Source: Oscillospiraceae bacterium (GTDB lineage Bacteria > Bacillota > Clostridia > Oscillospirales > Ruminococcaceae). Taken from it: a DNA stretch of 34,238 nt. Position 1 is the stretch's first letter; each line of letters begins with the position of its first letter. The stretch lies in assembly GCA_014799365.1 (NCBI GenBank), contig JAAVIF010000019.1, positions 1-34,238 of the forward strand, written 5' to 3'. The notes beneath the pieces are model-generated. The model was not told the origin of the DNA, did not search any database, and saw only the letters and a program-made list of their open reading frames with translations. A program made the translations under genes and the position numbers. Of the stretch, positions 1-18,092 are shown piece by piece.

Positions 1-117
1 AAAATCATATTGTAGACAATATTTTACAGGGTCTGCAATATGATTTTCAATTACACCCAAAGCACTAATTCCCAATCAACAACATAATTTGTCTATACTT
101 TGATTGGGAATTAGTAT
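1..117. repeat. Palindromic element, copy A (left edge cut by window)
   Basis: This is two hairpins joined by the family core, read here on the complementary strand. Hairpin arms 1-12 and 36-47 match perfectly (12 bp), and arms 64-79 and 100-115 match perfectly (16 bp, 20-nt loop). Between them, 51-69 carries TTACACCCAAAGCACTAAT, the reverse complement of the core seen at 3615-3633, 14850-14868 and 18015-18033. The right end is ATTAGTAT, as in the other copies. The arm sequences are unlike those of the other copies, so this is a separate subfamily. It ends 65 bp before the start of the condensation-domain gene. Confidence 0.8.
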
Positions 118-120
118 CAG

Positions 121-181
121 ACCCGTCATGCTGATGCCCCGGCATATCGGCACGCTTCAAGAAGAAAGGTGGATTATACAA
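121..181 (+). promoter_or_regulatory. Hairpin leader of the condensation-domain gene, shared with the ligase gene
   Basis: The segment from ACCCGTC at 121 to the start codon aligns almost without gaps to 1875-1934 before the AMP-ligase gene. Both read ACCCGTC, then a hairpin, then TCAARAAGAAAGG with GATTATA just before ATG. Here the stem is imperfect: TGCTGAT at 129-135 pairs with ATCGGCA at 146-152, with one G-U pair. The AGAAAGGTGG ribosome binding site follows. It could be a regulatory RNA leader or the trace of a duplicated 5' region; its function is not known. Confidence 0.55.
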
Positions 182-1591
182 ATGAAGGAATTTAACATCA
201 ATGGTACGGTGATGCAGTGTTATCCGCTCACCGCCGCGCAAAGACTGCATTTCTACACAATCAAATTTGCAAAGCCGCAGGTGCTTAATATCGGCACCGG
301 GCTGTATATCAAGCAGGACGTGGATTTCGGGATATTAAAGCAGTGCATAAAGGAGGCAATTGCGGGCTTTGATTCGATGAGGCTGCGTTTTGTGGAGGAC
401 GAGGACGGCACGGTTTATCAATATGTCGTTCCGTTTGATGAAAGAGAGATAGGTTTTTTTGACTTCTCTCACTGGCGCGAGGAGGACGCTCACGCCGAGA
501 TGACCAATTGGACCCATAAGCCCTTTGAGCGTTACAATTCTCCAATGAACACTGTTGTTATGATAAAATATCCGGGCGGCTACAACGGAATTTATCTTAA
601 GGTTGACCATATGACCATGGATTCCAGCTCGATCATCGGGTTCAACAAATTGGTGCTGGAGCTTTACTGCGCAAGGGTTTACGATTATCCTCAGCCAAAG
701 CCTTTACAGTCGTATATTAAGGCCGTCCGGCACGATCTGGAATACGAAGCGGAGGGCAGCGCGGTGCGTAAAAGGGACGAGGAATTCTGGAAAAACGAGA
801 TCGAACGCGATGAGCCCATATATACCGACTTTACGGGTCCGGGCAGACTGATCACTCAGCGCAGGGAAAGCGGAAATCCCGATCTCAGAAGCGCGGTTAT
901 CACATCAAGCACACTGGACGCGGCAATTTCGGTTTATCACCTGGAGGGAGAGCCTTCCGCAAGGCTGATGAAATTCTGCGAGGAAAACAAGGTCACAATG
1001 GCGGGTCTGCTGCTTATGGGACTCAGAACCGTGCTTTCAAAGTTCAACAACGACGAAAAGGACGTTTCGGTAAAAACCAACGTGGCAAGGCGCGGAACGC
1101 TGTTGGAAAAGTACAGCGGCGGCACAAGGATCCACTTCTTCCCGCTGCGCACGATCTTACAGCCCGAACAGACCTTTATTGAAGGAATAAGGACTATTCA
1201 AACGGAGCAAAACAGGATTTTCAGACACGCAAACTACGACCCTATCGAGCTTACAATGAAAAGGGCGAAATACCGCAAATTTGCTCCCGGAGCAAGCTAC
1301 GAAAGTATTTCTCTCACCTATCAGCCCTTGACGCTGAGAGAAAAAAATACCGAGCTGCCCGATATTGATTATAAGACCTTCTGGTATTCAAACGGAGTGG
1401 CGGCACAGCCCTTGTACCTGACGGTAATGCACCGCCCCGAGGATAACGGTCTGAATTTCAATTTTGAATACAAAAAAGACGTGGTAAGCGATAAGGAAAT
1501 GGAATTTCTGTATTACTATTACTGCCGCGTTTTGTTCAGAGGGATCGAGGACAAAAACAGAACTATCGGTCAGATTCTGGAAATGATTTAA
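182..1591 (+). CDS. Freestanding NRPS-type condensation-domain protein
   Basis: The product is a 469-residue protein that resembles a single condensation (C) domain with no fused carrier or adenylation domain. Residues 142-147 read DHMTMD. This keeps the catalytic second His (H143) and the Asp (D147) of the HHxxxD motif, with Asp in place of the first His. Such domains join a carrier-bound acyl or aminoacyl group to an amine or alcohol acceptor. The ATG at 182 is chosen because AGAAAGGTGG lies 9 nt upstream; an in-frame TTG at 104 would run into the palindromic repeat. The ACP gene follows after 21 nt and a ligase after that, so the three proteins probably act together. The acceptor and product cannot be told from sequence. 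Confidence 0.75.
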   Translation: MKEFNINGTVMQCYPLTAAQRLHFYTIKFAKPQVLNIGTGLYIKQDVDFGILKQCIKEAIAGFDSMRLRFVEDEDGTVYQYVVPFDEREIGFFDFSHWREEDAHAEMTNWTHKPFERYNSPMNTVVMIKYPGGYNGIYLKVDHMTMDSSSIIGFNKLVLELYCARVYDYPQPKPLQSYIKAVRHDLEYEAEGSAVRKRDEEFWKNEIERDEPIYTDFTGPGRLITQRRESGNPDLRSAVITSSTLDAAISVYHLEGEPSARLMKFCEENKVTMAGLLLMGLRTVLSKFNNDEKDVSVKTNVARRGTLLEKYSGGTRIHFFPLRTILQPEQTFIEGIRTIQTEQNRIFRHANYDPIELTMKRAKYRKFAPGASYESISLTYQPLTLREKNTELPDIDYKTFWYSNGVAAQPLYLTVMHRPEDNGLNFNFEYKKDVVSDKEMEFLYYYYCRVLFRGIEDKNRTIGQILEMI

Positions 1592-1612
1592 AGGAAAGGA
1601 ACGGTTTTAATT

Positions 1613-1840
1613 ATGTTTGAAGAGCTTAAGGAAATGATATGCAATTATGTTGAGGCGGACGCCGATGCCATAACATTGGAAAGCAAGTTCGTCGACGATC
1701 TGGGCTTTAACTCGTTCGATTTTATGAGCTTTTTGGGTGAAGTCGAGGAAAAGTACGATATTCACGTTAACGAAGAGGAAATAATCGATCTTGCTACCGT
1801 GGGCGACGCGATTGATTATATTGAGAAGCTGAAAGGTTAA
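1613..1840 (+). CDS. Acyl/peptidyl carrier protein
   Basis: This is a 75-residue acidic four-helix carrier protein. The motif DDLGFNSFDF at residues 28-37 places the phosphopantetheine-accepting serine at S34. The usual motif is DSL/DSI, and here it is NSF, which fits a specialised carrier rather than the housekeeping fatty-acid ACP. It lies 21 nt after the condensation-domain gene with a good AAAGGAAAGGAA ribosome binding site, and the AMP-ligase gene follows. The likely role is to hold the substrate activated by the ligase and present it to the condensation enzyme. No phosphopantetheinyl transferase is visible in the window. A role in fatty-acid synthesis is less likely, because the fab cluster lies 23 kb away. 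Confidence 0.88.
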   Translation: MFEELKEMICNYVEADADAITLESKFVDDLGFNSFDFMSFLGEVEEKYDIHVNEEEIIDLATVGDAIDYIEKLKG

Positions 1841-1874
1841 GCTTTAAAGAACCCGAATAATCGGTTTTTTTAAA

Positions 1875-1934
1875 ACCCGTCGTGCTGCTGCTTTTGGCAG
1901 CAGCACTCCTCAAAAAGAAAGGCAGATTATAATT
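1875..1934 (+). promoter_or_regulatory. Hairpin leader of the AMP-ligase gene
   Basis: Arms 1882-1891 (GTGCTGCTGC) and 1897-1906 form a perfect 10-bp hairpin with a 5-nt loop. No T-run follows, so it is not an ordinary terminator. The whole stretch from ACCCGTC to the start codon matches the leader at 121-181. The stem bases differ between the two copies but pairing is kept. The ribosome binding site AAGAAAGG is 10 nt from the ATG. A weak terminator-like CCGA-ATAA-TCGG plus seven T (1853-1871) sits just before it. Confidence 0.55.
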
Positions 1935-3476
1935 ATGAAAACATTATTTGATTTGGTCAGCGACGCGCAGAGCAATTACGGAAGCAATATTTTCGTTAAG
2001 GAAAAATGCGGAGACGGCATCAGTGAAAAGACCTTCGGAGAGTTTTACGCAGACGCGCTTAAGATCACCGATTTTTTGAAGGATAAATTCGGCGGAACGG
2101 TTCACGCGGGAGTTATAGGTCCTACAAGCTATAACTATTTGGTATCATATATCGGCACAATGATCGGGGGCAGCACCGCAGTGCCTATTGACGCGCAGCT
2201 TGCTCCCGCCGATATATGCGAGCTTTTGGCACGGGCGGATGTTGACATTTTGTTTTACGATGAAAGATTTTCGGCCGCCGTTCCCGCGTTTAAGGCAAAT
2301 TGCCCGAATATAAAGGAGTTCGTTTCCCTGTCGGATAAAACGGAGGGCGATACTCCAACGATGGGGAGAGTGCTTGAAAAGTACCTGCCCAAAGCTCTTG
2401 AGACTTCCGAGCTGCCCGACGAAAAGACGCTTGCGGCGATCTTATTCACGTCGGGAACAACGGGAAAAGCAAAGGGCGTAATGCTGTCTCACGGCAATTT
2501 TACGGACAATGTTTTTTGCTGCGAAAACGAGAGCACAAGCGAGGACGTTTTGCTTACGGTACTCCCCATTCATCATATATACTGCTTTACCTGCGATATA
2601 CTGCTGTCGCTTCGGTACGGAACAACGGTATGTGTAAACGATTCTTTGCTTAAGGTGGCGCAAAATCTTAAGCTGTTCGCGCCCACAATAATTTTGCTTG
2701 TGCCAATGATCGCCGCAACTGTTTATAAGCAGATCAAAACCGCCGCAAAGGCAAATCCCGATATTCCGATACAGGCTATCGCAAAGAGCGCGCTGGGCGG
2801 CAGACTTAAGGTAATATACAGCGGCGGCGCGTATCTGAATCCCGAGCTTATCACGGCGTATGAGGAGCTTGGTGTAACTATCGCACAGGGCTACGGAATG
2901 ACGGAATGCTCGCCGAGAATAACGACCGGAGATTTGAGCCGCAAGTCCGTGGGCGACGTGGGAACGGTGGTAAAGGGCTGCGAGGTAAGGATAGTGGACG
3001 GCGAAATAACCGTAAAGAGCGGTTCGGTAATGCAAGGCTATTACAAGGACGAAAAATCCACCGCCGAAACGCTTAAGGACGGCTGGCTGTATACGGGCGA
3101 TCTGGGATATGTTGACGAAGAAAACCGTCTGTTTATCACAGGCAGAAAGAAAAATCTGATAATTCTTTCAAACGGCGAAAACGTTTCTCCCGAGGAGCTT
3201 GAAAACAAGGCAGAGGCCTTACAGATAGCTCAGGAGCTTATGGTGTATTCCGAGGACGAGCTTCTGACGATAGAGCTGTACTTAGGAAACGAGCTTTACA
3301 AGGGTAAAACCGAGGAGGAAGCGGTTACAGAGGTCAAAGAAAAGGTTAAGCAGCTCAATAAGGCTCTTCCGTCCTCAAAGGCCATACATCGCATAAGGAT
3401 AAGAAATACGGAGTTTGAAAAAACTACCTCGAGGAAGATCAAGAGAAGTCAGCAGGTTAAGGGAGAAATTGTTTAA
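1935..3476 (+). CDS. AMP-forming acyl/aminoacyl ligase (ANL superfamily)
   Basis: This 513-residue adenylate-forming enzyme activates a carboxylic acid with ATP, presumably for loading on the carrier protein encoded just upstream. Clear family motifs are the P-loop FTSGTTGKAK (171-180), GYGMTE (319-324), YTGDLG (386-391), GRKKNLI (403-409) and the C-terminal TTSRKIKR, where K501 would be the catalytic lysine. No carrier or condensation domain is fused. The length and the compact N-terminus resemble acyl-CoA/acyl-ACP ligases as much as NRPS adenylation domains, so the substrate may be a fatty, aryl or amino acid. A hairpin leader like that of the condensation gene precedes it. The next plus-strand stretch holds palindromic repeats and a terminator. 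Confidence 0.85.
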   Translation: MKTLFDLVSDAQSNYGSNIFVKEKCGDGISEKTFGEFYADALKITDFLKDKFGGTVHAGVIGPTSYNYLVSYIGTMIGGSTAVPIDAQLAPADICELLARADVDILFYDERFSAAVPAFKANCPNIKEFVSLSDKTEGDTPTMGRVLEKYLPKALETSELPDEKTLAAILFTSGTTGKAKGVMLSHGNFTDNVFCCENESTSEDVLLTVLPIHHIYCFTCDILLSLRYGTTVCVNDSLLKVAQNLKLFAPTIILLVPMIAATVYKQIKTAAKANPDIPIQAIAKSALGGRLKVIYSGGAYLNPELITAYEELGVTIAQGYGMTECSPRITTGDLSRKSVGDVGTVVKGCEVRIVDGEITVKSGSVMQGYYKDEKSTAETLKDGWLYTGDLGYVDEENRLFITGRKKNLIILSNGENVSPEELENKAEALQIAQELMVYSEDELLTIELYLGNELYKGKTEEEAVTEVKEKVKQLNKALPSSKAIHRIRIRNTEFEKTTSRKIKRSQQVKGEIV

Positions 3477-3523
3477 ACATTTTTGCTTGTATTGAACGTA
3501 CATAACCTGCGACTATCGTCGCA

Positions 3524-3542
3524 CCTTCGGCAAAGCCGAAGG
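3524..3542. other. Short perfect hairpin after the ligase gene
   Basis: CCTTCGGC and GCCGAAGG pair over 8 bp around an AAA loop, 47 bp after the stop codon. There is no T-run after it; a palindromic element begins directly. It may help terminate or stabilise the ligase transcript. Confidence 0.4.
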
Positions 3543-3588
3543 ATTTGGACAGTAGATTTTATCTACTGTCCAAACGGATATTAGTATA
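3543..3588. repeat. Palindromic element, partial copy B1
   Basis: A perfect 14-bp hairpin (3544-3557 with 3561-3574, 3-nt loop) is followed by GGATATTAGTATA, the conserved right end of the family. The core is missing, so this is a half element. It abuts the left end of copy B2, so the junction 3581-3595 reads as a perfect palindrome TTAGTAT-A-ATACTAA. Confidence 0.65.
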
Positions 3589-3683
3589 ATACTAATCCCT
3601 TTTAAAACTGTTGGATTAGTGTTTAGGGTGCAATCCCTTTTTAAACTGTGGGTATTTCGTCAGTTTAAAAAGGGATTGGTATA
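3589..3683. repeat. Palindromic element, complete copy B2
   Basis: This is the clearest intact copy. The left end is ATACTAAT, and hairpin 1 has outer arms ACTAATCC (3591-3598) and GGATTAGT (3613-3620). The core ATTAGTGTTTAGGGTGCAA is at 3615-3633. Hairpin 2 has perfect 17-bp arms at 3632-3648 and 3661-3677 with a 12-nt loop, and the end is GGTATAA. It is closely related to the interrupted copy at 14824-15046. It holds no open frame. With copy B1 and the hairpins around it, this accounts for most of the 320-bp gene-free stretch 3477-3796. Confidence 0.85.
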
Positions 3684-3689
3684 AGAAAC

Positions 3690-3737
3690 CGCCGAGAATG
3701 TGCAAAACATAGTGTTTATGCACGTTCTCGGCGTTTT
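3690..3737 (+). terminator. Rho-independent terminator between convergent genes
   Basis: Arms 3690-3704 and 3719-3733 pair over 15 bp with one G-U pair, starting CGCCGAGAATG. The loop region can pair further (AAACA with TGTTT), and TTTTGATTT follows. It lies between the plus-strand ligase and the minus-strand phosphotransferase; the minus-strand side has only a weak T-run. Confidence 0.7.
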
Positions 3738-3796
3738 GATTTCGTTATGTACTCATTTTTTGAAAGGCTGTTCCCGTTATGGTTCTTGTTTATATT

Positions 3797-4750
3797 TCAA
3801 ATTTGCAGTTCCTTCCATGAATCCTCAAATAACGGTTTTGTCCATTGATACTGCCCGTCATCGGGATACCCGCGGTACGCTCCCTCCGTCATCATCGTAA
3901 GGTACAGCAGCACATCGTACCAGCAAATACGGCGCATTTCCTCTTTTGAAAAATTCTCCTGTCCGTATCCTTTCAGAAATTCGCGGTTTCTTGCGTGTCT
4001 GCGAAAACGGTCGTCCAAGAAAGCCTCTGCCCACATGGCGCGCTCCCAATCAATGATACCGCTGATCTGCCCGTCTTTTACAAAAACATTGCCTTCCCAC
4101 ATATCCCAATGCACCAATGTAGGTTTGGATACCGCGTCAAAAACATATCTGTCCTGTTCCAGCCTCGCCAAAATATCCTCGGACTCCACACCTATCACAA
4201 TTTTTTTCTTTATGGCATCAGACAATACATTTGAAATCAAGCGATAAACAAAATCAAACAAATATGTATATCGATGCTTTTCGTCTCCCAGAAGTCCGAA
4301 TTTTTCCCCTTGAATAGCCGTAAGCTTTCTTTCTGTACGTCCAATTTCGTAATTCAATCTCCGTTTTTCTTCCTCGGACATGCTTTCCTTTGCAGTGAAA
4401 AAGCTCTGTCCTTCGATCGCTTCCATAAAGAAATAGTCGCTGCTGCAAATTGTTTTGGAGGTATCGTAATACTGAACCTCCGCCACCCTTATAAGACCGC
4501 TTTTTCCCACGATGTCCATTGCTTTTACTTCCGCGTCCATCATGTTTACTTCATTTGACAGAAGCCCCTTATTCTCCCCGGGAGCGATTTTCAGAACGCT
4601 TTTGCTTCCGTCCGAGAATTTCACAAGGTAGGCGGCATTGCACATGCCCTCAGTAAGCTCTGTGCATGATTCCATACGCTTTTGCGGAAACGCGGACAAA
4701 GCCATTCGACATATTGCGGTTTCCGATTGGATATTTTTCGTAATGCTCAT
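3797..4750 (-). CDS. Aminoglycoside/choline kinase-like phosphotransferase
   Basis: This 317-residue protein belongs to the APH/choline kinase fold (Pfam APH family), which transfers phosphate from ATP to a hydroxyl of a small molecule. The catalytic loop LVHWDMWEGN (212-221) supplies H214, D216 and N221, and IIDWE (232-236) holds the metal-binding D234. The N-lobe Lys is probably in VLKI near residue 54. The substrate is not predictable: aminoglycosides, macrolides, sugars and homoserine are all used by relatives. It starts 25 bp after the end of nrdD on the same strand, with only a weak ribosome binding site. It sits where nrdG, the RNR activase, is often found. Confidence 0.8.
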   Translation of the reverse strand: MSITKNIQSETAICRMALSAFPQKRMESCTELTEGMCNAAYLVKFSDGSKSVLKIAPGENKGLLSNEVNMMDAEVKAMDIVGKSGLIRVAEVQYYDTSKTICSSDYFFMEAIEGQSFFTAKESMSEEEKRRLNYEIGRTERKLTAIQGEKFGLLGDEKHRYTYLFDFVYRLISNVLSDAIKKKIVIGVESEDILARLEQDRYVFDAVSKPTLVHWDMWEGNVFVKDGQISGIIDWERAMWAEAFLDDRFRRHARNREFLKGYGQENFSKEEMRRICWYDVLLYLTMMTEGAYRGYPDDGQYQWTKPLFEDSWKELQI

Positions 4751-4775
4751 AGATATTTCTTTTTATAGGTGTCCT

Positions 4776-7034
4776 TTATTCCTTTATCCTCTTGACTCTT
4801 TCCGTATCCACCGCATGCTCTTCCTCTCTGCGTCCGCACTTAGGGCAAATATCCCCGATAATTCCCGTATATCCGCAGATAGAGTCGCGGTCAACGGGGT
4901 GGTTGATAGAGCCGTAGCCTATGCCGCTTTCCTTCATGCAGCGAATGACCTGTTCGAAGGCTTCAAGATTTTGCAGCGGGTCGCCGTCAAGCTCGATATA
5001 GCTGATATGTCCCGCGTTGGTCAAGGCGTGGTAGGGTGCTTCAAGCTTTATCTTGCTGAACGCGTCGATATTATAGTAAACGGGCACGTGGAAGGAGTTG
5101 GTATAGTATTCTCTGTCGGTAATGCCCTTGATCTCTCCGAAGCGTTTCTGATCCTTTCTGATAAACGTACCCGAAAGACCCTCGGCGGGAGTTGCAAGCA
5201 GCGAGAAATTCATTCCGGTTCTCTTGCTTTCCTCGTCCATGCGCTGTCTCATTCTGCCGATGATTCTTAAGCCCAGCTCCTGCGCTTCCTTGCTTTCGCC
5301 GTGATGAACTCCGATAAGAGACTTTAAGCACTCCGCAAGTCCGATAAAGCCCATAGACAGTGTGCCGTGCTTCAATATCTCCTCAATGCTGTCGTCCGTA
5401 CCCAGCTTATCGGAATCTATCCAAACGCCCTGTCCCATAAGGAAAGGATAGTTGCGCACCTTTTTCTGAGCCTGTATTTTATAGCGGTACTTTAACTGCT
5501 CCACCACAAGGTCCATTTTTTCTTCCAGAAGCTCGAAAAATTTAACCACGTCATGCTCTGCCAATATACCCAATCTGGGAAGATTGACGGAGGTAAAGCT
5601 TAAGTTTCCTCTGCCGCATACTATTTCGCGTTCGGGGTCGTAAACATTGCCGATTACGCGGGTACGGCAGCCCATATACGCTATCTCGGTGTTGTAATCG
5701 CCGGGCTTGTAGTATTGGAGGTTGTAGGGCGCGTCGATAAAGGAAAAGTTGGGGAACAAACGCTTTGCGCTGACGCGGCAGGCCAATTTGAACAGATTGT
5801 AGTTGGGGTCGCCCTCGTTGTAGTTGATACCCTCTTTTACCTTAAAGATGTGGATAGGGAAAATAGGCGTCTCGCCGTTGCCAAGTCCCGCTTCCTCCGC
5901 AAGGAGGATATTTTTTATCACCATTTGTCCCTCAATAGAGGTGTCGGTGCCGTAGTTAATGGAGCTGAAGGGCGTTTGCGCGCCCGCTCTGCTGTTCATG
6001 GTGTTCAGGTTGTGTACAAGAGCCTCCATTGCCTGATATGTAGCTCTGTCCGTTTCCTTGAAGGTCAGCTTTTTGGTATATTCCTGAATGCTTGCCGCAA
6101 GCTTTTCGTCTCCCGTTATTTTGGCGAGGTATTCTCTTTCCCTTGCGCAGAAGCCGAATTCGTCCGCAAGAGAGGGGAATATCTTTTCGGCGGCAAGCTT
6201 GTCCATATATTCGTTTACCGCCTTTTCGGTCTCTTCCGGATCGGTCTTGCCCGTTTTAAAGCCGATACCGCGGATAATGTTCTTTTTGTAAAGCTGCTTG
6301 TAGGTCTTTTTGATACCCTCGGCCATTGCATAGTCGAAATTGGGGATAGATTGTCCGCCGTGCTGGTCGTTCTGGTTGCTTTGAATGGCAATGCAGGCAA
6401 GAGCGGAATAGCTTCCTATGTTGTTTGGCTCTCTTAAGTAGCCGTGACCTGTGGAAAAGCCGTTTTTAAAGAGCTTTATCAAGTCTATCTGACAGCAGGT
6501 CGTGGTTAAAGTAAAGAAATCAAGGTCGTGAATGTGAATGTCTCCGTCAATGTGGGCTTTGGACTGCTCGGGCGGGAGAACGTACATTTCATTGAACTGC
6601 TTCGCACCCTCGGAGCCGTATTTAAGCATGGTACCCATTGCGGTGTCGCCGTCTATATTTGCGTTTTCGCGCTTCATATCGCTTTCAATGGCGGGCTTAA
6701 AGGTCAAGTCCTCGTATATCTTCATAAGTCCCGTATTCATTTCGCGTATACGGGTCCTGTCGGCGCGGTAAAGGATATATGCCTTTGCGGTTTTGGCGTG
6801 TCCGTTTTCCACCAACACCTTTTCAACGGTATCCTGAACCTCCTCGACGGTAGGGGGATTGGAGCTGCTGAAATTGTCATGCTCCAGCATTTCGCATACC
6901 TTTTCCGCCAAATCCTCCGCGGAGGAATAGTCGTTGCCGCCTACCGCTCTTGCCGCTCTGTAAATAGCGTCCGTGATCTTGTCCACACTAAAGGGAACGG
7001 TTCTGCCGTCTCTCTTTTGAATTTTCGTTATCAT
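4776..7034 (-). CDS. nrdD: Anaerobic ribonucleoside-triphosphate reductase, C-terminally truncated
   Basis: This is a class III RNR large subunit of 752 residues, which reduces NTPs to dNTPs without oxygen using a glycyl radical. An ATP-cone fills about residues 1-95, and the core has the family stretch IQSNQNDQHGGQSIPNFDY. The start at 7034 (MITKIQ) is preferred because GAAAGGACAAGG lies upstream of it; an upstream in-frame ATG at 7064 has no binding site. The zinc-site region CGYTGIIGDICPKCG is present. The protein then ends TERVKRIKE, where I expect ERIRRITGYLVG with the radical-bearing Gly. Neither the stop readthrough nor the other frames restore that loop. No nrdG is next to it. The protein is either inactive or needs a radical domain from elsewhere. 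Confidence 0.88.
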   Translation of the reverse strand: MITKIQKRDGRTVPFSVDKITDAIYRAARAVGGNDYSSAEDLAEKVCEMLEHDNFSSSNPPTVEEVQDTVEKVLVENGHAKTAKAYILYRADRTRIREMNTGLMKIYEDLTFKPAIESDMKRENANIDGDTAMGTMLKYGSEGAKQFNEMYVLPPEQSKAHIDGDIHIHDLDFFTLTTTCCQIDLIKLFKNGFSTGHGYLREPNNIGSYSALACIAIQSNQNDQHGGQSIPNFDYAMAEGIKKTYKQLYKKNIIRGIGFKTGKTDPEETEKAVNEYMDKLAAEKIFPSLADEFGFCAREREYLAKITGDEKLAASIQEYTKKLTFKETDRATYQAMEALVHNLNTMNSRAGAQTPFSSINYGTDTSIEGQMVIKNILLAEEAGLGNGETPIFPIHIFKVKEGINYNEGDPNYNLFKLACRVSAKRLFPNFSFIDAPYNLQYYKPGDYNTEIAYMGCRTRVIGNVYDPEREIVCGRGNLSFTSVNLPRLGILAEHDVVKFFELLEEKMDLVVEQLKYRYKIQAQKKVRNYPFLMGQGVWIDSDKLGTDDSIEEILKHGTLSMGFIGLAECLKSLIGVHHGESKEAQELGLRIIGRMRQRMDEESKRTGMNFSLLATPAEGLSGTFIRKDQKRFGEIKGITDREYYTNSFHVPVYYNIDAFSKIKLEAPYHALTNAGHISYIELDGDPLQNLEAFEQVIRCMKESGIGYGSINHPVDRDSICGYTGIIGDICPKCGRREEEHAVDTERVKRIKE

Positions 7035-7140
7035 TGATGACCTTGTCCTTTCTTTTTCAGCCATATTTAGGCAAAATAATAAAGACCGTAAAACTATTGT
7101 ATACAGCCTTTAGGATAGTTGTACTTCCTCGTTGGGTTTT

Positions 7141-7186
7141 CACAATATGTTGTGTTTTTTTCGTTAACAATATATATTATATTGCG
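7141..7186. promoter_or_regulatory. Pair of NrdR-like boxes
   Basis: CACAATATGTTGTG at 7141-7154 matches 13 of 14 central positions of the NrdR box as I recall it (CACWATATATWGTG). A weaker match (about 10 of 14) lies at 7173-7186. The two are 32 bp apart, about three helical turns, as is usual for NrdR. The second box overlaps the -10 of the nrdD promoter, which fits repression of nrdD when ATP/dATP levels are high. Confidence 0.65.
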
Positions 7187-7204
7187 TTTTTAAGTTTTTG
7201 TCAA
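7176..7204 (-). promoter_or_regulatory. Consensus sigma-A promoter of nrdD
   Basis: Read on the minus strand, this is TTGACA, a 17-bp spacer and TATAAT, a perfect match to the housekeeping consensus. It lies about 140 bp upstream of the chosen nrdD start. The 382-bp gene-free stretch 7035-7416 holds this promoter, the NrdR-like boxes and the vanR promoter. Confidence 0.85.
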
Positions 7205-7386: not shown

Positions 7387-7416
7387 AAAGAAAAAACAAA
7401 GGACAGGTCAGACCCG

Positions 7417-10266: not shown

Positions 10267-10304
10267 TTTATGAGGCAAGGCAAAAGAAAGGAATGATCAT
10301 AAAA

Positions 10305-11351
10305 ATGAACAGGAAAAAAACAGCCGTGCTTTTCGGCGGCTGTTCAAGCGAATACGGGGTTTCCTTACAGTCCGCGTATTCGGTTTTAAAAGGGCTGAAC
10401 AAAGAAAAGCTTGATATAATACCGATAGGTATTACCGAAAAAGGTGATTGGTATCGGTATAACGGCGATTATTCAAATATAAAAAATGACGCTTGGGAGA
10501 GCGACAGGGAAAATCTTATACCCGTCGCGGTTTCGGTGAGCCGAGGGAAAAAAGGATTGATAGAGCTTGACGGGAACGGGTCGGGGCCGATCGATATTGA
10601 CCTTGCTTTTCCCGTTCTTCACGGAAAGAACGGGGAGGATGGTACGGTCCAGGGCTTGTTTGAGCTTGCGGGAATAGATGTGGTAGGCTGTGATTCGCTG
10701 TCCTCCGCCCTTTGTATGGATAAGCACAGGGCGCATGCCTTGGTTGAAGCGGCGGGCATAAAAGTGCCGAGATCGGTGCTTTTAAAGCGGCCCGTCACCG
10801 ACGAGATGAGGAAAAAGCTTTCTGAGCTGTCATATCCGTTTTTTGTAAAGCCCGTACGGGCAGGGTCGTCCTACGGGGTAAGCAAGATCAAAAGCGTCGA
10901 CGAGCTTCAGGCGGCTTTAAGCCTTGCTTTTTGCTATGATGATGAAGTGCTTGCCGAGGAAAATATCGAGGGCTGCGAGGTGGGCTGCGCAATTATGGGG
11001 ACCGACGGCTTTATTGTGGGCAGAGTTGACGAAATAGAGCTGGAAGCCGACTTTTTCGACTACACGGAAAAGTACACCTTAAAAACCTCTAAAATCCATA
11101 TGCCCGCAAGAGTGGACGGCTTAACGGAAAAAAGAATACAAAGCACCGCCGTTAAAATTTTTGAGCTTTTGGGCTGCTCGGGCTTTGCAAGGGTCGATAT
11201 GTTTTTGACTCCCTGCGGCGAAATAGTATTCAACGAGGTAAACACTATCCCCGGCTTTACCTCCCACAGCCGTTTCCCCAATATGATGAAAGGAATAGGT
11301 CTGTCCTTTGAAGCTATGCTGGACAAGATACTTGAACCCTATTTAAAATGA
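10305..11351 (+). CDS. vanG: VanG-type D-alanine--D-serine ligase
   Basis: This 348-residue ATP-grasp ligase is predicted to make D-Ala-D-Ser, which replaces D-Ala-D-Ala in peptidoglycan precursors and lowers vancomycin binding. I recognise long stretches close to VanG, such as FPVLHGKNGEDGT, VGCDSLSSALCMDKHRAH, KPVRAGSSYG, FDYTEKYTLKTSKI and NEVNTIPGFTSHSR. The EKYTLK omega-loop type separates VanG from D-lactate ligases such as VanA. The ATG at 10305 (MNRKKTAVLFGG) is preferred to the in-frame ATG at 10293, because it aligns with the VanG N-terminus and gives workable spacing from AAAGGAA. The last 4 bp overlap vanXY (ATGA). D-Ser specificity is inferred and untested. Confidence 0.9.
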   Translation: MNRKKTAVLFGGCSSEYGVSLQSAYSVLKGLNKEKLDIIPIGITEKGDWYRYNGDYSNIKNDAWESDRENLIPVAVSVSRGKKGLIELDGNGSGPIDIDLAFPVLHGKNGEDGTVQGLFELAGIDVVGCDSLSSALCMDKHRAHALVEAAGIKVPRSVLLKRPVTDEMRKKLSELSYPFFVKPVRAGSSYGVSKIKSVDELQAALSLAFCYDDEVLAEENIEGCEVGCAIMGTDGFIVGRVDEIELEADFFDYTEKYTLKTSKIHMPARVDGLTEKRIQSTAVKIFELLGCSGFARVDMFLTPCGEIVFNEVNTIPGFTSHSRFPNMMKGIGLSFEAMLDKILEPYLK

Positions 11352-12103
11352 AAAAAGAAGAGCTTATACTGACGGAAAAGGAAATATACAAGGGCAGCCT
11401 GATACTTGTAAACGAAAAATACGGAATAAAAAACGGCGAAAGCATAGATCTTTCCGAAGCCGCACCAAATGTGTTTTTGCAAAGGGAGGCCGCTAATCGT
11501 TTAAAGGAAGCGTTAAAGAAAATCAAGGCGGAGGATAAAATAGTTTTGGTAAGCGGATTTCGTTCAAGGAGCGAGCAAAGCGAAATATACAAAATGTCTC
11601 TGTACGAAAACGGAGAGGAGTTTACAAAACAGTATGTGGCCTTGCCCGATCACAGCGAGCATCAAACGGGTCTGGCAGTAGACCTTGCATTGAAAAGCGA
11701 CAGTATAGATTTTATCAGACCCGATTTTCCTTTTGAAGGAATATGTCAGCAATTCAGAGAAATTGCCGCGGAGTACGGATTTATACAGCGTTATCCCAAG
11801 GAAAAGGAAAATATTACGGGAATATCGTTTGAGCCGTGGCATTTTCGCTATGTTGGCGCGCCTCATTCGAAGATAATGGAGGAAAAAGGGCTTACCCTTG
11901 AGGAATACACCGATTATATCAGAGAATACGGCTTTTACAACAGGTTAAGCTTCAACGCGGACGATGCCGGGGAAGTATTTTACATTAAATTCGACGCAGG
12001 GTCGGGAGAGAAGAAAATACCTCTTTCGGAAAAGGAAAGCCTTACTGTTTCGGGAAACAACCGGGACGGCTTTATTGCAACGGTGAAAAAGAATGACAAA
12101 TAA
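11348..12103 (+). CDS. vanXY: VanXY-type D,D-peptidase
   Basis: This 251-residue zinc peptidase of the VanY/VanXY (M15) family has no signal peptide or membrane anchor, which fits the cytoplasmic VanXY form. Such enzymes hydrolyse D-Ala-D-Ala and trim D-Ala from UDP-muramyl pentapeptide. Zinc ligands are H105 and D112 in SEHQTGLAVD, and H165 in EPWHFRYVG. E162 is the likely catalytic base and R72 sits in SGFRS. The start codon overlaps the vanG stop by 4 bp, so the two are translationally coupled. The length matches VanXY of the vanG operon. The C-terminal 60 residues or so, beyond the catalytic core, have no recognised function. Confidence 0.88.
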   Translation: MKKEELILTEKEIYKGSLILVNEKYGIKNGESIDLSEAAPNVFLQREAANRLKEALKKIKAEDKIVLVSGFRSRSEQSEIYKMSLYENGEEFTKQYVALPDHSEHQTGLAVDLALKSDSIDFIRPDFPFEGICQQFREIAAEYGFIQRYPKEKENITGISFEPWHFRYVGAPHSKIMEEKGLTLEEYTDYIREYGFYNRLSFNADDAGEVFYIKFDAGSGEKKIPLSEKESLTVSGNNRDGFIATVKKNDK

Positions 12104-13157
12104 GCTCGGATATAAAGGGATAGATTTTTTTCGTATTATTGCGGCCGTCCTTGTAATAACAATCCACACTTCTCCCTTGGAGCTGTGCTGTCCGACGGGG
12201 GATTATATCCTGACCCGTGTTATCGCGCGGACAGCCGTTCCGTTTTTCTTTATGACAAGCGGTTTTTTTCTTCTGTCCGACGGCTGCGCGGACATTAAAA
12301 GGCTGAAAAAATTCCTCAAAAAAACGCTTTTGGTATACCTTGTCTCAATTCTGCTGTATCTTCCCGCGAACGTTTATAACGGCTATTTTTCGGCGGATAA
12401 CTTGTTTTTAAACATATTAAAGGATATATTTTTTGACGGTACCTTTTATCATTTGTGGTATCTTCCCGCTTCCGCTTTGGGAGGTGCTGTTGTCTTTTTT
12501 GCGGTACGGAAAGCGGGGTACGGCAAATCCTTGGTTATATTTTTATTTCTTTACATAATAGGTCTGCTTGGCGACAGCTATTACGGGGTTATTTCGGGTA
12601 TTGCGCCTTTAAAAGCCGTGTATGACTGCATTTTTGCCGTGTTTGATTATACCAGAAACGGGATTTTCTTTGCACCGCTGTTTATGCTGCTGGGAGGTGT
12701 TGTCGGGAAAAAGGGGAAGAAAACGGAGAACAGCGGCTTTTCGGAGAGTGGAAGCAGTCACGGCGGCAGGCTCGGCACCGATCTTGTATGCGCGGCCGTT
12801 TCCTTTGGCCTTATGCTTGCCGAAGCACTTATACTGCGTAATTTTAATTTGCAGCGGCATGACAGCATGTATGTATTTCTTGTGCCGCTGATGTGGTTTT
12901 TGTTTAATATTCTCGTACGATTCAAGGGGAAACGTAAAAAATATATCAGCGGGCTTGCGCTTATCGTTTATATTATACACCCAATTACTATCATTGCCGT
13001 AAGAGGAGAGGCAAAGGCGTTGGGCTTGGAAAGGCTTTTTATAGATAACGGGATAGTGCATTTTGCCGCGGTTTGCGTTTGTTCATTTGCGGAGGGGATA
13101 GGACTGCTGCTTGTTAGGGAAATTTTGAGGAAGCCGAGGGGGAGACATTTGAGGTAA
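12093..13157 (+). CDS. vanT: VanT membrane domain only (serine transporter half, no racemase)
   Basis: This 354-residue polytopic protein of the acyltransferase-3 fold has about ten membrane segments. Its N-terminus (KGIDFFRIIAAVLVITIHTSPL, with one more stretch ARTAVPFFFMTSGFFLL) closely resembles VanT of vanG operons. Full VanT is about 700 residues and carries a PLP-dependent serine/alanine racemase domain at its C-terminus. Here the protein stops after the membrane half (ending RKPRGRHLR), and no racemase sequence follows in any frame. The vanL operon splits the two halves into VanTm and VanTr genes, so this could be a VanTm whose partner is missing or elsewhere. It overlaps vanXY by 11 bp. 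Confidence 0.82.
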   Translation: MTNKLGYKGIDFFRIIAAVLVITIHTSPLELCCPTGDYILTRVIARTAVPFFFMTSGFFLLSDGCADIKRLKKFLKKTLLVYLVSILLYLPANVYNGYFSADNLFLNILKDIFFDGTFYHLWYLPASALGGAVVFFAVRKAGYGKSLVIFLFLYIIGLLGDSYYGVISGIAPLKAVYDCIFAVFDYTRNGIFFAPLFMLLGGVVGKKGKKTENSGFSESGSSHGGRLGTDLVCAAVSFGLMLAEALILRNFNLQRHDSMYVFLVPLMWFLFNILVRFKGKRKKYISGLALIVYIIHPITIIAVRGEAKALGLERLFIDNGIVHFAAVCVCSFAEGIGLLLVREILRKPRGRHLR

Positions 13158-13324
13158 AAATAGATAAGGATAATTTTTTAAAAGTAGTTTTTTTATTTGT
13201 ATGAATTGAGAATTATTTTTACATGAAATTTGGTGGAATGCCATTATGAGTTTGAAATATGTCATCGTATATTTTAACTGCTTTATAGGATTACGGATAT
13301 TTTTAATATATATAATTCAGTAAT

Positions 13325-14371
13325 TCACTTATGCTTTGAAAAATTAGATTCATCTAAATCTACATCAACAACATCATCATCCTCCTCATATTCATCCTCG
13401 TCATCAAAATCCAAATCCAAATATTCGTCTGAAAAATCATATTCCTTATAAATAATGTATTTACTTAATTCAGCCGAGGGAATTTTTTTATTGATTTTAT
13501 CTTCGTTATCAAACAACCTATTCGTTAATTTTAATTCAAAATCTTTTTCTATTATGTAATCAGATTTTACATATGTGGTATAGTCATCTTCTTTTTCTTC
13601 ATTTATTTCATAAAAACCTATGGAATTTAAATACTCAATTAAAGCTTTTTTATTAGAAATGAACGGAAAAAAATCAGTATATCCCAATAACTTTTGTAAA
13701 TATCTAATTACATTATTTGGTGCAAAAAATGTTGAATCAAACTTTACCCAAAACTTCTCCATCTCTTCGTTAAATATCTTAATTGAATTTTGTATTGTAT
13801 CTGCCGAAGATTGTAAATCATATGCGGTTTTGGTTTCTGTGACAGATGCGTCATTACTTAATAATCGCTGAAACAATCCTGCAAATTGTTTTTTGAGATT
13901 ATCGGTTATGTCGGAAATGTTTTCGAATGTTTCAATAGGATGGTTCTTAATATTATCTTTTATTTCAGCTATAAATTGATGTATCTTTATATTATCAACA
14001 CTTGCCGGATCAAAATCCTTGTCTTTGTTTTTCAAATAAGTTCGATTTTCTATATCAACCTCCTTTAGAACGTAGATATAGATTTTTTTTCTTGCTTTAA
14101 TTGCTGACATCAACTCATTCATAGTTATTGATAAGTCACCATCTTGTGATTTAGTGCCGTATTTGTTTCCAATAATACAAACTACTATATCACAGTTCTG
14201 CAATTCACTGTAACAAGAACTTTCCAATGTTTCCGTCTGAGCATAAGTAACTCCTCCTTTGTCATGCATTACAGGGTCATATCCTAAAGATTTAATAAAA
14301 TTGCCTATGTCTTCTCTTACATGACGTAAGTCATAATATGTTGAACTTATAAATACTCTTGGTGTTGCCAT
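13325..14371 (-). CDS. DUF4062 (TIR-like) protein with acidic tail
   Basis: This is a 348-residue protein. Residues 3-110 fit the DUF4062 family, a TIR-like fold: RVFISSTYYDLRHVREDIG, then YSELQNCDIVVCIIGNKYGT and SITMNELMSA. DUF4062 domains often precede NTPase or sensor domains in defence proteins, but no P-loop is visible here. The rest (about 180-310) is unrecognised, and the last 35 residues or so are mostly Asp and Glu. The start has a strong AGGAGGG site 7 nt upstream. The gene is clearly more AT-rich than its neighbours, stands alone against the direction of the van operon and is followed by AT-rich non-coding DNA, all signs of transfer. A defence role is a guess. Confidence 0.75.
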   Translation of the reverse strand: MATPRVFISSTYYDLRHVREDIGNFIKSLGYDPVMHDKGGVTYAQTETLESSCYSELQNCDIVVCIIGNKYGTKSQDGDLSITMNELMSAIKARKKIYIYVLKEVDIENRTYLKNKDKDFDPASVDNIKIHQFIAEIKDNIKNHPIETFENISDITDNLKKQFAGLFQRLLSNDASVTETKTAYDLQSSADTIQNSIKIFNEEMEKFWVKFDSTFFAPNNVIRYLQKLLGYTDFFPFISNKKALIEYLNSIGFYEINEEKEDDYTTYVKSDYIIEKDFELKLTNRLFDNEDKINKKIPSAELSKYIIYKEYDFSDEYLDLDFDDEDEYEEDDDVVDVDLDESNFSKHK

Positions 14372-14823
14372 ATTTTTTCCCTCCTAAATTTGTTATGCTA
14401 TTGACGTCCCTGTCATTTCATTTAAAATCTCCTCGTATACAGTTTATAGGTATAGTGAAAATTTAGCATGAGCAATGATTAGAAATCCACTTGGGAATTT
14501 ACGAACCGTAAATTTTTGATAAGTAGAAAAAACAGAGTAATTTGCATTTTAGATTGTTGGATAAATTATTTAAGCAAATCATCTATTTTACTTTGTGTTT
14601 TTTTACCCTACAAAATTTTCTCTAATATAATGAAAGGTATATATCTAATTATTTCTATTTTATCACTTTATTTTACTTAAGTCAACAAAATTTCACATTT
14701 TTTTAAAAATTTTAAAGATGTAATTGCAATATGTTATGTACATTTATGAAAAAGGCTTTACTCAAAAATTCCGCAAATTTCCATTGATAATATTGACTTT
14801 TGCCGAAAATAAGGGTATACTTA
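14372..14823. other. AT-rich non-coding stretch
   Basis: No credible gene is seen here. The stretch belongs to the same AT-rich block as the DUF4062 gene and must hold its promoter, which I could not place with confidence. A perfect 8-bp hairpin (AATTTACG at 14496-14503 with CGTAAATT at 14507-14514) precedes a short T-run. The palindromic elements begin at the right-hand end. Confidence 0.5.
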
Positions 14824-15046
14824 ATACTGATCCCTGTTATAATTGTGGGATTAGTGTTTCGGGTGAAATCCCATTTTATACTAATCTCTGTTTTGACGGT
14901 AGACAAAACATAACAAAGTCTACCGTCAAAACAGAGTTACACCCTAAACACTAATATCTGTTTAAAAAGCCATTTTATCCACTTTTTAAACAGATATTAG
15001 TATTAAACTGTGGGTATTACGTCAGTTTAAAATGGGATTGGTATAA
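14824..15046. repeat. Palindromic element, copy C (interrupted by another copy)
   Basis: This copy is of the B2 subfamily. Its left end is ATACTGATCCC, hairpin 1 arms are 14826-14834 and 14847-14855, and its core is at 14850-14868. The 5' arm of hairpin 2 begins at 14867, breaks at 14878 and resumes at 15006; the 3' arm is 15023-15039. Removing the insert 14879-15002 and one copy of TTA gives AATCCCATTTTAAACTG, which pairs perfectly over 17 bp with the 3' arm. The right end GGTATAA lies 33 bp upstream of galE. Confidence 0.85.
14879..15002 (-). mobile_element. 124-bp palindromic mobile element inserted in copy C
   Basis: The ends are perfect inverted repeats TACTAAT (14879-14885) and ATTAGTA (14996-15002), flanked by a TTA duplication at 14876-14878 and 15003-15005. 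It contains two hairpins: 19-bp arms 14886-14904 and 14918-14936, and arms 14950-14969 and 14982-15001 of 20 bp. Between them is the core on the opposite strand (TTACACCCTAAACACTAAT, 14937-14955). It has no coding capacity, so movement would need an enzyme acting in trans. Its first hairpin is nearly identical to that of copy D. Confidence 0.85.
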
Positions 15047-15078
15047 ATAAGATAAAATAATTATTTTCGGAGGTCGTT

Positions 15079-16077
15079 ATGGCAGTTTTAGTAACAGGCG
15101 GTACGGGTTTTATCGGCTCTCATACTGTTGTGGAGCTTTTGGAAGCGGGCGAGGACGTAATTGTAATAGATAACTTTTACAATTCAAAGCCCGGAGTTAT
15201 CAACGCGATTCAGGACATTACGGGCAAGGGCTTCGGCTTTTACGAGGGCGACGTTGCCGACAAGGAGCTTTTGCGAAAAATCTTCAGAGAATGCTTTATC
15301 GAGGAGGTAATACACTTTGCGGGCTACAAGGCGGTAGCCGAAAGCTGTCAGAAGCCTGTTATGTATTACAGAAATAATATAGATTCCACTCTTGCGCTGC
15401 TGGAGGTTATGGAGGAATTCGGGTGCAGACGTTTGGTGTTCAGCTCCTCGGCTACCGTTTACGGTATTCCCGAAAAGGTGCCTGTGACCGAGGATTTTCC
15501 TCTGTCGGCTATCAACCCTTACGGCAGCACAAAGCTTATCATCGAAAATATGTGCAGGGAGCTGTGCAAAGCGGACGACCGCTGGAGCATCGCGCTGCTC
15601 AGATACTTTAATCCTATCGGAGCTCATGAGAGCGGAAAGATAGGCGAAGACCCCAACGGTATACCCAACAATCTTATGCCAATAATCCTGCGTGTGGCAT
15701 CGGGCAAAAATCCTATTTTGTCGGTGTACGGCAACGATTATCCCACAGCGGACGGAACCTGCGTAAGAGATTACATTCACGTTGTTGACCTTGCAAAGGG
15801 ACATCTTGCGGCGATAGAATCGGTAAGGAAAAACACGGGCGCGATACCCTACAATCTCGGCACGGGCAAAGGATATTCCGTTCTCGATATAATCAACGCA
15901 TTTGAAAAGGTCAATGACGTTAAGGTTCCTTATGTTATCGCGGACAGGCGCGCCGGCGATGCGGCGGAGTGCTACTCCAATCCCTCAAAGGCAAACAAGG
16001 AGCTTGGCTGGAAGGCGGAGCGCGGTATAGAACAGATGTGCCGCGACGCGTGGAACTATATTAAGTCACAGAATTAA
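15079..16077 (+). CDS. galE: UDP-glucose 4-epimerase
   Basis: This 332-residue extended short-chain dehydrogenase interconverts UDP-glucose and UDP-galactose (Leloir pathway and glycan precursors). The NAD-binding motif GGTGFIGSH is at residues 7-15, SATVYG near 124-129 and the catalytic pair Y148/K152 in NPYGSTK. The length is normal for GalE. CGGAGG precedes the ATG. No other galactose gene lies next to it. Its upstream region is filled by palindromic elements ending 33 bp before the start, so its promoter must lie within or before them. Some GalE relatives also act on UDP-GlcNAc, and sequence reading alone does not settle this. Confidence 0.92.
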   Translation: MAVLVTGGTGFIGSHTVVELLEAGEDVIVIDNFYNSKPGVINAIQDITGKGFGFYEGDVADKELLRKIFRECFIEEVIHFAGYKAVAESCQKPVMYYRNNIDSTLALLEVMEEFGCRRLVFSSSATVYGIPEKVPVTEDFPLSAINPYGSTKLIIENMCRELCKADDRWSIALLRYFNPIGAHESGKIGEDPNGIPNNLMPIILRVASGKNPILSVYGNDYPTADGTCVRDYIHVVDLAKGHLAAIESVRKNTGAIPYNLGTGKGYSVLDIINAFEKVNDVKVPYVIADRRAGDAAECYSNPSKANKELGWKAERGIEQMCRDAWNYIKSQN

Positions 16078-16145
16078 GCCGAATTACGTTATACAGACAG
16101 ATAAAAAGACATTTATGCTTGTCTTTTGAATGCGGAGGATAAAAT

Positions 16146-17081
16146 ATGCTGGAGACAGTGGCTTCCTGTACCCTTGCGGTTGACGAAAAGGCGGTAATAA
16201 AGAAAAATCGCCTTGCCCCAAGGGACGGAGCGGAGGGGAAAAAACGAATAGCGATAGTTACGGGGATCCACGGCGACGAGCTGGAGGGACAGTACGTATG
16301 CTATGAGCTTATACGCAGGATCAACGGGGGATATGCCGATCTTAACGGAATCGTCGACGTTTATCCGATGCTGAATCCTTTGGGTGCGGACGCTGTGACA
16401 AGACAGATACCTATGTTCGACCTCGACATGAACCGAATTTTCCCCGGCAGTGAAAGCGGTTCTCCGTGGGAGCATATGGCTAAAAAGGTTTTGGACGATA
16501 TAACAGGTGCCGATCTTTGTATCGATATTCATTCAAGCGATATTTTTCTGCGCGAAATACCTCAGGTGAGGATAGCGGCAGAGGAGAAAATGAGGCTTTT
16601 GCCTTTTGCAAAGCGTTTGAACTGCGACTTTGTATGGGTCGGGAGCAGCTCGGCGGTAAGGCCCTCGTCATTGTCCTACGCCTTAAACAGCGCGGGAACG
16701 CCTTGCCTTGTAGTTGAAATGGGCGCTGGAATGAGGATAACCAAGGAGTACGGCGATCAGCTCCTTGACGGAATTTTTGCGATAATGTCCGACATGGGAA
16801 TATGGTCGGGTCCCGTGAGAGAGGTATCAAACCCGATCGTTTCCAGCGACGGGGAGGTAACTATCATTCACTGCAACAAAAGCGGAGTGTTTATGCCGGC
16901 AATTCGTCACTGGATAGGTATCTGCGAGGGCGATCACATCGGAGATATATTGAACGTATATACGGGTGAGATCGAGGAAGAAATTTTCTCGCCCGTATCG
17001 GGAATGGTGTTTACCTTAAGAGAATATCCCGTGGTATCGTCGGGAAGCTTGATTGCAAGAATACTCGGAGGCGGAAGATGA
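16146..17081 (+). CDS. Succinylglutamate desuccinylase/aspartoacylase-like zinc hydrolase
   Basis: This 311-residue protein is of the AstE/AspA (M14-related) family, which removes acyl groups from N-acylated amino acids or peptides with one zinc. The zinc motif HGDE (42-45) gives H42 and E45, and CIDIHSS gives the third ligand H129. DLDMNRIFPG (about 92-101) is the usual substrate-binding motif. The last 100 residues or so form the beta-rich C-terminal domain of the family. GCGGAGG precedes the ATG. A second, related gene overlaps its end by 4 bp, so both proteins are made together and may form a complex. The substrate is not known. Confidence 0.85.
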   Translation: MLETVASCTLAVDEKAVIKKNRLAPRDGAEGKKRIAIVTGIHGDELEGQYVCYELIRRINGGYADLNGIVDVYPMLNPLGADAVTRQIPMFDLDMNRIFPGSESGSPWEHMAKKVLDDITGADLCIDIHSSDIFLREIPQVRIAAEEKMRLLPFAKRLNCDFVWVGSSSAVRPSSLSYALNSAGTPCLVVEMGAGMRITKEYGDQLLDGIFAIMSDMGIWSGPVREVSNPIVSSDGEVTIIHCNKSGVFMPAIRHWIGICEGDHIGDILNVYTGEIEEEIFSPVSGMVFTLREYPVVSSGSLIARILGGGR

Positions 17082-18013
17082 CAAAGGAAATCATTTATAA
17101 ATTCGAGTCGGCGTACCGTGGAGATTTTAACGTTAAGGCATACCATTTTAACAAGGGAGAAAAGTCCTGCTGCATAGTTGGCGCGTTAAGAGGAAACGAG
17201 ATACAGCAGCTTTATGTTTGCTCTAAGCTTATCAAAGCACTTAACGAGCTTGAAAAGCAGTGCCGCATAAGCTACGGACATAAGATCACCGTTATCCCAT
17301 GCGTCAACCCATTTTCGCTAAATATAGGCAAACGCTTCTGGAGCAATGACAACAGGGACATAAACAGGGATTTCCCCGGAGCAGCGGACGGAGAACCCAC
17401 CCAAAGAATAGCTGCCCGGCTTATGAACGCCGTCAGCGGCTATCAATACGGTATTCAGTTCGCTTCCTTTTACATTCAGGGCGATTTTATCCCTCATGTA
17501 AGAATGATGGAAACGGGGAAGGAAAACACGGGACTTGCCAATCTTTTCGGCTTGCCCTATGTGGTAAAAAGAAATCCCAGACCCTTTGACCGCAACACCT
17601 TGAATTATAACTGGCAGTTAAACGGTACAAGTGCTTTTTCGGTTTACACAAACGAGACGGAGGACATAGACGAAGCAAGCGCGGATTTGGCGGTAGCTTC
17701 CGTTTTAAGATTTCTTTCCCGAATGGGAATAATCAAGCATCAATGTCACGGCGGATATATGTCGACCATTCTTGAAGAAGAATCGCTTATGCCCGTTAAA
17801 TCCGCTGTCGGCGGGATTTACCGCAGAAAAAAGCACCCGGGGGACGAGGTGGTGCGCGGAGAGATTATGGCGGAAATTTTCGATCCTTATGAGAACAATG
17901 TTATTGAGGAGATAAAGGCTCCCTGTAACGGGATCGTGTTTTTTGCGCATAAATCGCCGGTGGTTTGTGAGAGTATGGTTCTTTATAAGATTATTAAAAG
18001 GCTTAAAAATTGA
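17078..18013 (+). CDS. Aspartoacylase-like paralogue without zinc ligands
   Basis: This protein also has 311 residues and aligns along its length with the preceding gene product. However, the zinc motif HGDE has become RGNE (38-41), and the third ligand His has become Gln (Q127 in YGIQFAS). The DINRDFPG substrate motif is kept. This suggests a catalytically dead partner, perhaps a regulatory or structural subunit of a heteromer, or an enzyme with another chemistry. The start codon overlaps the upstream stop (ATGA), which implies coupled translation. The gene is intact with normal codon use, so it is kept by selection and is not a pseudogene. A palindromic element begins at its stop codon. Confidence 0.8.
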   Translation: MTKEIIYKFESAYRGDFNVKAYHFNKGEKSCCIVGALRGNEIQQLYVCSKLIKALNELEKQCRISYGHKITVIPCVNPFSLNIGKRFWSNDNRDINRDFPGAADGEPTQRIAARLMNAVSGYQYGIQFASFYIQGDFIPHVRMMETGKENTGLANLFGLPYVVKRNPRPFDRNTLNYNWQLNGTSAFSVYTNETEDIDEASADLAVASVLRFLSRMGIIKHQCHGGYMSTILEEESLMPVKSAVGGIYRRKKHPGDEVVRGEIMAEIFDPYENNVIEEIKAPCNGIVFFAHKSPVVCESMVLYKIIKRLKN

Positions 18014-18092
18014 TATTAGTGCTTAGGGTGTAACTCTGTTTTGACAGTAGCCCCGTTCCGTTTTGTCTACTGTCAAAACAGAGATTAGTATA
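18014..18092. repeat. Palindromic element, copy D (single hairpin)
   Basis: The core ATTAGTGCTTAGGGTGTAA is at 18015-18033. The hairpin has perfect 17-bp arms (18034-18050 and 18067-18083) around a 16-nt loop, and the end is ATTAGTATA. The first hairpin is missing where the element meets the gene's stop codon. Its arms match those of the insert at 14886-14936 except for one base pair that is A-T here and G-C there. Confidence 0.82.

Follow-up and report, generated by a model that had tools for sequence, protein, structure and literature searches.

A MITE-like mobile family of one bacterial genus with a conserved frame and replaceable paired stems

The two-hairpin elements considered here were found in a window of 34,238 nucleotides, the whole stretch of DNA that was analysed, which corresponds to bases 1–34238 of contig C19 (GenBank JAAVIF010000019.1) in the 2.69-Mb draft genome of an Oscillospiraceae bacterium (G000, the source genome). 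These elements are a mobile family of one genus, similar to miniature inverted-repeat transposable elements (MITEs), in which a conserved frame is combined with replaceable stems. They are short, multi-copy and non-coding, they are bordered by duplications of the form TNA, and empty sites can be recovered for them. Along its length a copy consists of the tip TACTA(A/T)T, a stem-loop-stem, the core GYTTNGGGTG, another stem-loop-stem and the tip ATTAGTA; complete copies are mostly 91–125 bp long, and nearly all copies with both ends carry the terminal inverted repeats TACTA(A/T)T and ATTRGTA. The main set comprised 208 core copies from eight genomes, all genomes in this study being drafts; both ends were called in 145 copies by a rule that used a pairing threshold, and the later removal of an over-long hairpin left 144.

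Conserved frame and covarying stems

Each half of an element folds on itself into its own predicted hairpin, with stems of up to about 23 bp. Among 30 representatives, standard pairs occupy 91.9% of pair cells, an absolute level that is inflated among accepted copies because of the pairing threshold used in end calling, and changes on both sides are seen in 23 of 34 pairs. Covariation between partners reaches 0.511, as against 0.147 in shuffled data (standard deviation 0.012; none of 500 shuffles as high) and a maximum of 0.186 when the partners are slid, and the observed figure is itself lowered by three misregistered rows which lack one T after the core. A preliminary description of the window, made from its letters alone, had proposed just such a conserved frame with replaceable paired stems, and the covariation confirms it.

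The frame itself takes part in this pairing. The Y of GYAA combines with the R of ATTRGTA as C-G in 76 copies, T-A in 67 and C-A in one, and base 6 of the left tip forms A-T in 122 copies and T-A in 20 with the base opposite it in its hairpin, the right tip remaining T in those 20. Since base 6 follows its hairpin partner while the right tip is unchanged, pairing is local to each half. The common plan and ends that had been described thus hold, except that these three positions (left-end base 6, Y in GYAA and R in ATTRGTA) change in concert with their pairing partners. Hybrids of unlike halves also occur: L199 and L220 carry a target duplication and L216 does not, L199 being well paired and the second half of L220 partly decayed.

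At the similarity cut used, the arms fall into 15 clusters for hairpin 1 and 18 for hairpin 2, of which several comprise one copy each and two or more of the hairpin-1 clusters derive from doubtful ends. The arms had been thought to form unrelated groups. There are indeed many differing stem groups, but within an element the left arm is similar to the right one (6.64 of 12 positions versus 5.07 in shuffled data, 41 of 10,000 shuffles being as high, over 11 collapsed lineages that include L232 with a doubtful left end), and the loop letters TATAGACAAA reappear across different arm groups. As left and right arms are more alike than chance, the arms are not free of sequence demands.

Insertion, copy number and distribution

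T-N-A stands on both sides of 130 of the 144 copies with both ends, and the middle base is identical in 122 of these 130, compared with 69.6 expected. The fourth flanking base is identical in 30 of 144, which is the chance level, so that the duplication is exactly 3 bp. Twelve of the 124 copies with identical 3-bp flanks sit within another element of either family (the second, termed M, is treated below), and their rejoined site shows no more than four mismatches in 25; for 11 of the 12 there are no more than two, and in four the target is the TTA that belongs to the core. In the control, 2 of 138 25-mers taken from 150–350 bp upstream did so. The count of empty sites that the preliminary description had called for yields insertions with a recoverable prior state. 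Concerning siting, 91 of the 96 complete copies from two genomes (G000 and G032) lie between crudely called open reading frames (ORFs), three overlap the end of an ORF and two are inside one, while the crude coding fraction is 0.807. The 81 copies with two neighbours occupy 50 tandem, 23 convergent and 8 divergent gaps.

The copies are not confined to the window: at up to two mismatches the core has 183 matches in the source genome (96+87 on the two strands, partial copies counted), whereas the reversed pattern used as a control has 1+0. With up to one mismatch, the core was found in 7 of 99 genomes, G000 included, all of one genus, and in none of the 39 from other genera. The suggested covariance-model search of the genome and its relatives was run with a model built on the 30 representatives (E ≤ 0.001; no more than 51 candidates scored per genome under stricter filters, so that counts are floors), and placed the first family in at least 9 of 71 genomes of the genus. 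The ninth bearer, G034, was not among the inputs of the model, and its four copies combine new paired arms with the retained core. Among the matches listed for 147 genomes drawn from the order, G000 and G034, both of this genus, were the only bearers. A scan of genome contigs for the exact core gave 22 stretches; four of the five inspected are real elements, and the fifth, in a Chitinophagaceae metagenome-assembled genome (L026), is an unrelated tandem array whose TAGTGTTTAGGGTGCAAACA-like unit matches the core by chance. No exact core was found in viral contigs, and no believable match lay outside the one genus in the 99-genome core search, the 147-genome draw or the contig scan. Among the core matches listed, 115 in G000 and 38 in G032 were read first.

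In G015, a subfamily of 112 bp with arms TATCCA is represented by at least 34 copies of identical score (89.7 bits), many of them at contig ends, which suggests a recent burst. At locus L036, around position 228, a single coreless hairpin carries both tips (TACTAATATCTG...CAGATATTAGTA) and is flanked by TAA and TGA.

The window copies and a second family

The window contains five two-hairpin elements and one remnant of M. The first element (1–116, minus strand; covariance-model match C19:4–116) has an incomplete hairpin 2, as the copy is cut by the start of the contig, whose first base is the first base of the window. A complete element of 92 bp lies at 3590–3681 on the plus strand, between TAA at 3587–3589 and TAA at 3682–3684, and adjoins the M remnant. 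Farther along, an element on the plus strand (14825–15043, with TAA at 14822–14824 and 15044–15046) is split by a nested complete copy of 124 bp on the minus strand (14879–15002, matched by the covariance model over exactly these bases, with TTA at 14876–14878 and 15003–15005); deletion of the inner copy and one TTA rebuilds an arm that matches the unbroken arm of the outer element, and hence restores the empty site. The last element (18015–18090, plus strand) is truncated on the left and retains the core, hairpin 2 and the right tip; it lies directly 3' of an ORF at 17078–18013, and a search for its left end found none. All six places originally listed hold palindromic sequence, and five of them share one plan and lie no more than a few bases from the positions first given. 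The sixth, 3543–3588, had been taken for a partial copy but is the tip of an M element, of which the left tip with the first hairpins next to it and the M core (C19:3487–3504) remain at about 3487–3586 on the minus strand, the right half being lost.

A whole M element measures 189 bp and has the core TATGTACGTTCAATACAA, the same tips as the first family, and three predicted hairpins per half. After five of the 22 rows called full were excluded as artefacts (four wrap-round and one with a nested element), 17 complete copies could be read, all with TTA on both sides, although L285 has an odd right tip. In 12 of the 17, a motif ATCC, AACC or ACCC occurs four times, once at each tip and once on either side of the core. 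Among the remaining five, L287 is a hybrid with ACCC in its left half and ATCC in its right half, pairing being kept inside each half; L057, L258 and L268 have one unpaired base at these places, and L285 is irregular. The M core has 63 matches (26+37) in G000 and is present in 6 of the 71 genus genomes, each of them one of the nine that carry the first family. The M family, which was met in the window (3487–3586), throughout G000 and at loci L257, L260, L265, L270, L272 and L284, likewise has stems that vary in matched pairs. Contigs of G000 often start or stop inside copies of either family, as the window itself does, and 20 of the 56 second-family matches listed start no more than 60 bases from the first base of their contig (e.g., C14:5–22, C15:14–31 and C28:13–30). 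The elements thus coincide with many contig ends in draft assemblies.

Mechanism and relation to known systems

On balance, we consider it probable, though well short of certain, that these elements are non-autonomous DNA transposons moved in trans by a DDE-type transposase, and that their stems must pair within their own half in order to propagate. The exact 3-bp duplication points to such an enzyme, which would act in trans and generate the TNA duplication, both the DDE chemistry and the trans mobilisation being our deduction. The tips and the core would be recognised as sequence, while the stems would need pairing inside their own half and be otherwise fairly free in sequence; lineages may drift through compensated changes as individual copies accumulate uncompensated ones, and the halves would be exchangeable. 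Pairing would be required, or restored, during mobilisation, and we infer the former rather than restoration only. A mechanism that reads structure, as proposed from the window, is suggested by the constant tips and core and the matched changes of the stems, in that the mover would rely on shape in addition to sequence; such a mover is plausible. More tentatively, and with a probability well under one half, the elements could belong to a cut-and-insert system with 3-bp duplications whose fold-back hairpin ends are read mainly by shape, the tips and core serving as the sequence code, the stems having only to pair, and the halves being exchangeable.

In clusters of at least three copies, 28 compensated events (19 shared by several copies, 9 private) and 72 uncompensated ones (12 shared, and 60 confined to a single copy) were recorded, along with five further double changes that leave the bases unpaired. 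Because compensated changes are mostly shared and uncompensated ones mostly private, spreading lineages have paired stems and lone copies decay. Pairs are also altered less (85 of 2156 and 137 of 3034) than bases that do not pair (133 of 2105 and 144 of 2202).

Several points weigh against the proposal of a DDE-type transposase and stems that must pair. The clusters reach a divergence of up to 20% and shared events count lineages, similar event patterns would be expected from templated correction, and the pairing threshold, besides inflating absolute pairing, left only 145 of the 208 core copies with both ends. The flanks of the four G034 copies are mixed, with TAA on both sides in two, unlike flanks (CAA and TGA) in one, and one copy cut. 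A transposase gene flanked by the same ends, which the preliminary description had suggested looking for, was not found in six family searches (PF01609, PF13359, PF00665, PF13586, PF01797 and PF13701), although drafts break at repeats and the failed search is therefore weak evidence of absence. In an unpaired-end scan over 500–3500 bp, the ORFs looked like host genes by eye among 45 listed of the 89 compatible pairs, and the sequence downstream of ten truncated copies, read by eye, likewise consists of host genes.

Within these searches, PF01609 matches occur in 21 of 60 genus genomes, in 7 of 8 bearers versus 14 of 52 others, and their greater frequency among bearers is suggestive, some matches being weak fragments; 20 of the 34 match rows yielded loci and 14 did not. 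None of the 23 loci from PF01609 and PF13359 carries the ends of the elements, and for 17 of them the surrounding repeats listed begin with sequences other than the tips. No partner emerged from PF13359 in seven bearers, from PF00665 (nine loci) and PF13586 (five loci) in eight bearers each, or from PF01797 (six loci) and PF13701 (one locus) in nine bearers each. One candidate, an IS5-type gene between the inverted repeats AAGAACCTGTACCAATA (L171; G032 C4, 921–1768), has the tip-like TACCAATA on both sides, yet this is embedded in longer AAGAACCTG-TACCAATA repeats, so that the tip is not at the end of the repeat. The IS5-type ends of G007 are AGACCTCC with ATT. At two contig ends of the same genome (L144 on C130 and L149 on C12), an IS5-type element has the ends AGACCTCCTCGGAAACTAATT with ATT alongside, unrelated to the family tips.

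Other explanations account for parts of the same evidence. The elements could be equally mobile while their palindromes correct themselves by template switching during replication or repair, one arm being copied to the other and the shape arising as a by-product; we regard this as rather unlikely. It would explain compensated changes among closely related copies, and core-strand mismatches are divided between G-T (36) and A-C (35), as expected without selection on a single-strand fold. Resident copies, however, show 60 private uncompensated events against nine private compensated ones, so that in-place correction looks slow, and the lower frequency of altered pairs points to a constraint on the stems. 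There is a modest chance that the arms are instead binding sites, repeated four times as inverted pairs, of a transposase or repressor that diversifies, with pairing following from the repeats in double-stranded DNA. The likeness of left and right arms and the fourfold occurrence of the M motif in 12 of the 17 complete copies agree with this, but pairing within halves is far tighter than likeness between them, and hybrids of unlike halves carry target duplications.

A function as RNA, in which transcribed two-hairpin structures would end, stabilise or regulate neighbouring transcripts, seems to us quite unlikely. The intergenic position of 91 of 96 copies and the stable predicted folds would suit it, although tolerated insertions would also be intergenic. 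In tandem gaps, 31 copies are oriented with the genes and 19 against them, and this ratio, together with the equality of G-T and A-C mismatches, leaves a role on one RNA strand, and with it the RNA-level mechanism of the preliminary description, without support. No Rfam RNA family matches at its gathering score, the four matches to the window and six loci all being below it. Movement of the REP or IS200/IS605 kind, by a Y1 transposase reading single-stranded hairpins, is very improbable. An exact 3-bp duplication is, to our knowledge, not expected of Y1 enzymes. Y1 matches are present in four of the nine bearers, but none was found in G000, G034, G015, G049 or G055, the first two of which are rated 100% complete; at L253 and L254, a Y1 match has an end of an element, or an entire one, in its vicinity but is not enclosed by it. 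In favour of such movement, besides the Y1 matches themselves, REP families are described as showing constant tags and variable complementary stems (PMC3733652).

With respect to known systems, the absence of a named family of this design, as first supposed, is upheld by the Rfam result and by the searched literature, in which no description of the family was found. The design itself is not wholly without precedent, since partial counterparts appear in the accounts of REP subfamilies (PMC3733652) and of CIR (PMC2229807). Bacterial MITEs such as ERIC, Correia/NEMIS, RUP and BOX are, as portrayed in PMC2229807, PMC10969869 and PMC3049150, shorter than 200 bp, AT-rich and geneless, with terminal inverted repeats, target duplication, mostly intergenic siting and strong predicted folds, all of which the present elements share; unlike them, where the usual stem joins one end to the other, the halves here fold on themselves, the core is constant, and the stems differ by lineage with compensation. 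CIR of Caulobacter and Brucella likewise has two long arms joined by a linker, a likeness of plan only; PMC2229807 describes it with a GANTC motif and lists an unknown target duplication for it, whereas the elements here have a TNA duplication, constant tips and the GYTTNGGGTG core, and our alignment (A1) contains no invariant GANTC, a motif that in CIR would stand at the end loop of an arm. The REP families with GTAG/CGTC tags resemble ours in combining constant parts with alternative complementary stem residues in their subfamilies (PMC3733652), and they include many dimers (PMC3733652, PMC8266576) and are recognised by Y1 (PMC8266576). They differ in that most GTAG stems are given as 6–9 bp (up to 12–13) and are associated with Y1, in contrast to stems of up to about 23 bp and a 3-bp duplication in a genome (G000) with no Y1 match, and no GTAG/CGTC tag stands at the stem foot among the invariant columns of alignment A1. 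Compensatory changes are also reported in IS605-related stem-loops (PMC2775950).

As regards the duplication, IS5-type and PIF/Harbinger (PHIS) transposons are credited with 3-bp AT-rich duplications of ANT, TWA or TNA by group (PMC4482050), to which that of the present elements is alike, TNA not being unique to IS5. An IS5-type transposase with the ends of the elements was found neither among the 23 loci, drawn in part from the 20 of 34 PF01609 rows that gave loci, nor among five further loci. The IS1031 group of the IS5 family makes a 3-bp TNA duplication, and we know of no fold-back halves among IS5-type or PIF/Harbinger transposons.

MITEs are usually grouped by common sequence, while what is common here is the frame and the fold; sequence-based catalogues would consequently split or miss the family, and the finding of G034 shows that its members are within reach of a covariance model. 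Should movement depend on pairing, a transposase that makes target duplications would be using folded DNA ends. Y1/HUH systems, IS608 and integron attC are structure-read systems, and, if fold-back ends are read mainly by shape, the elements would exemplify, apart from Y1/HUH and attC, a second and independently reached way of reading ends by structure, common to two families that have either one or three hairpins in each half.

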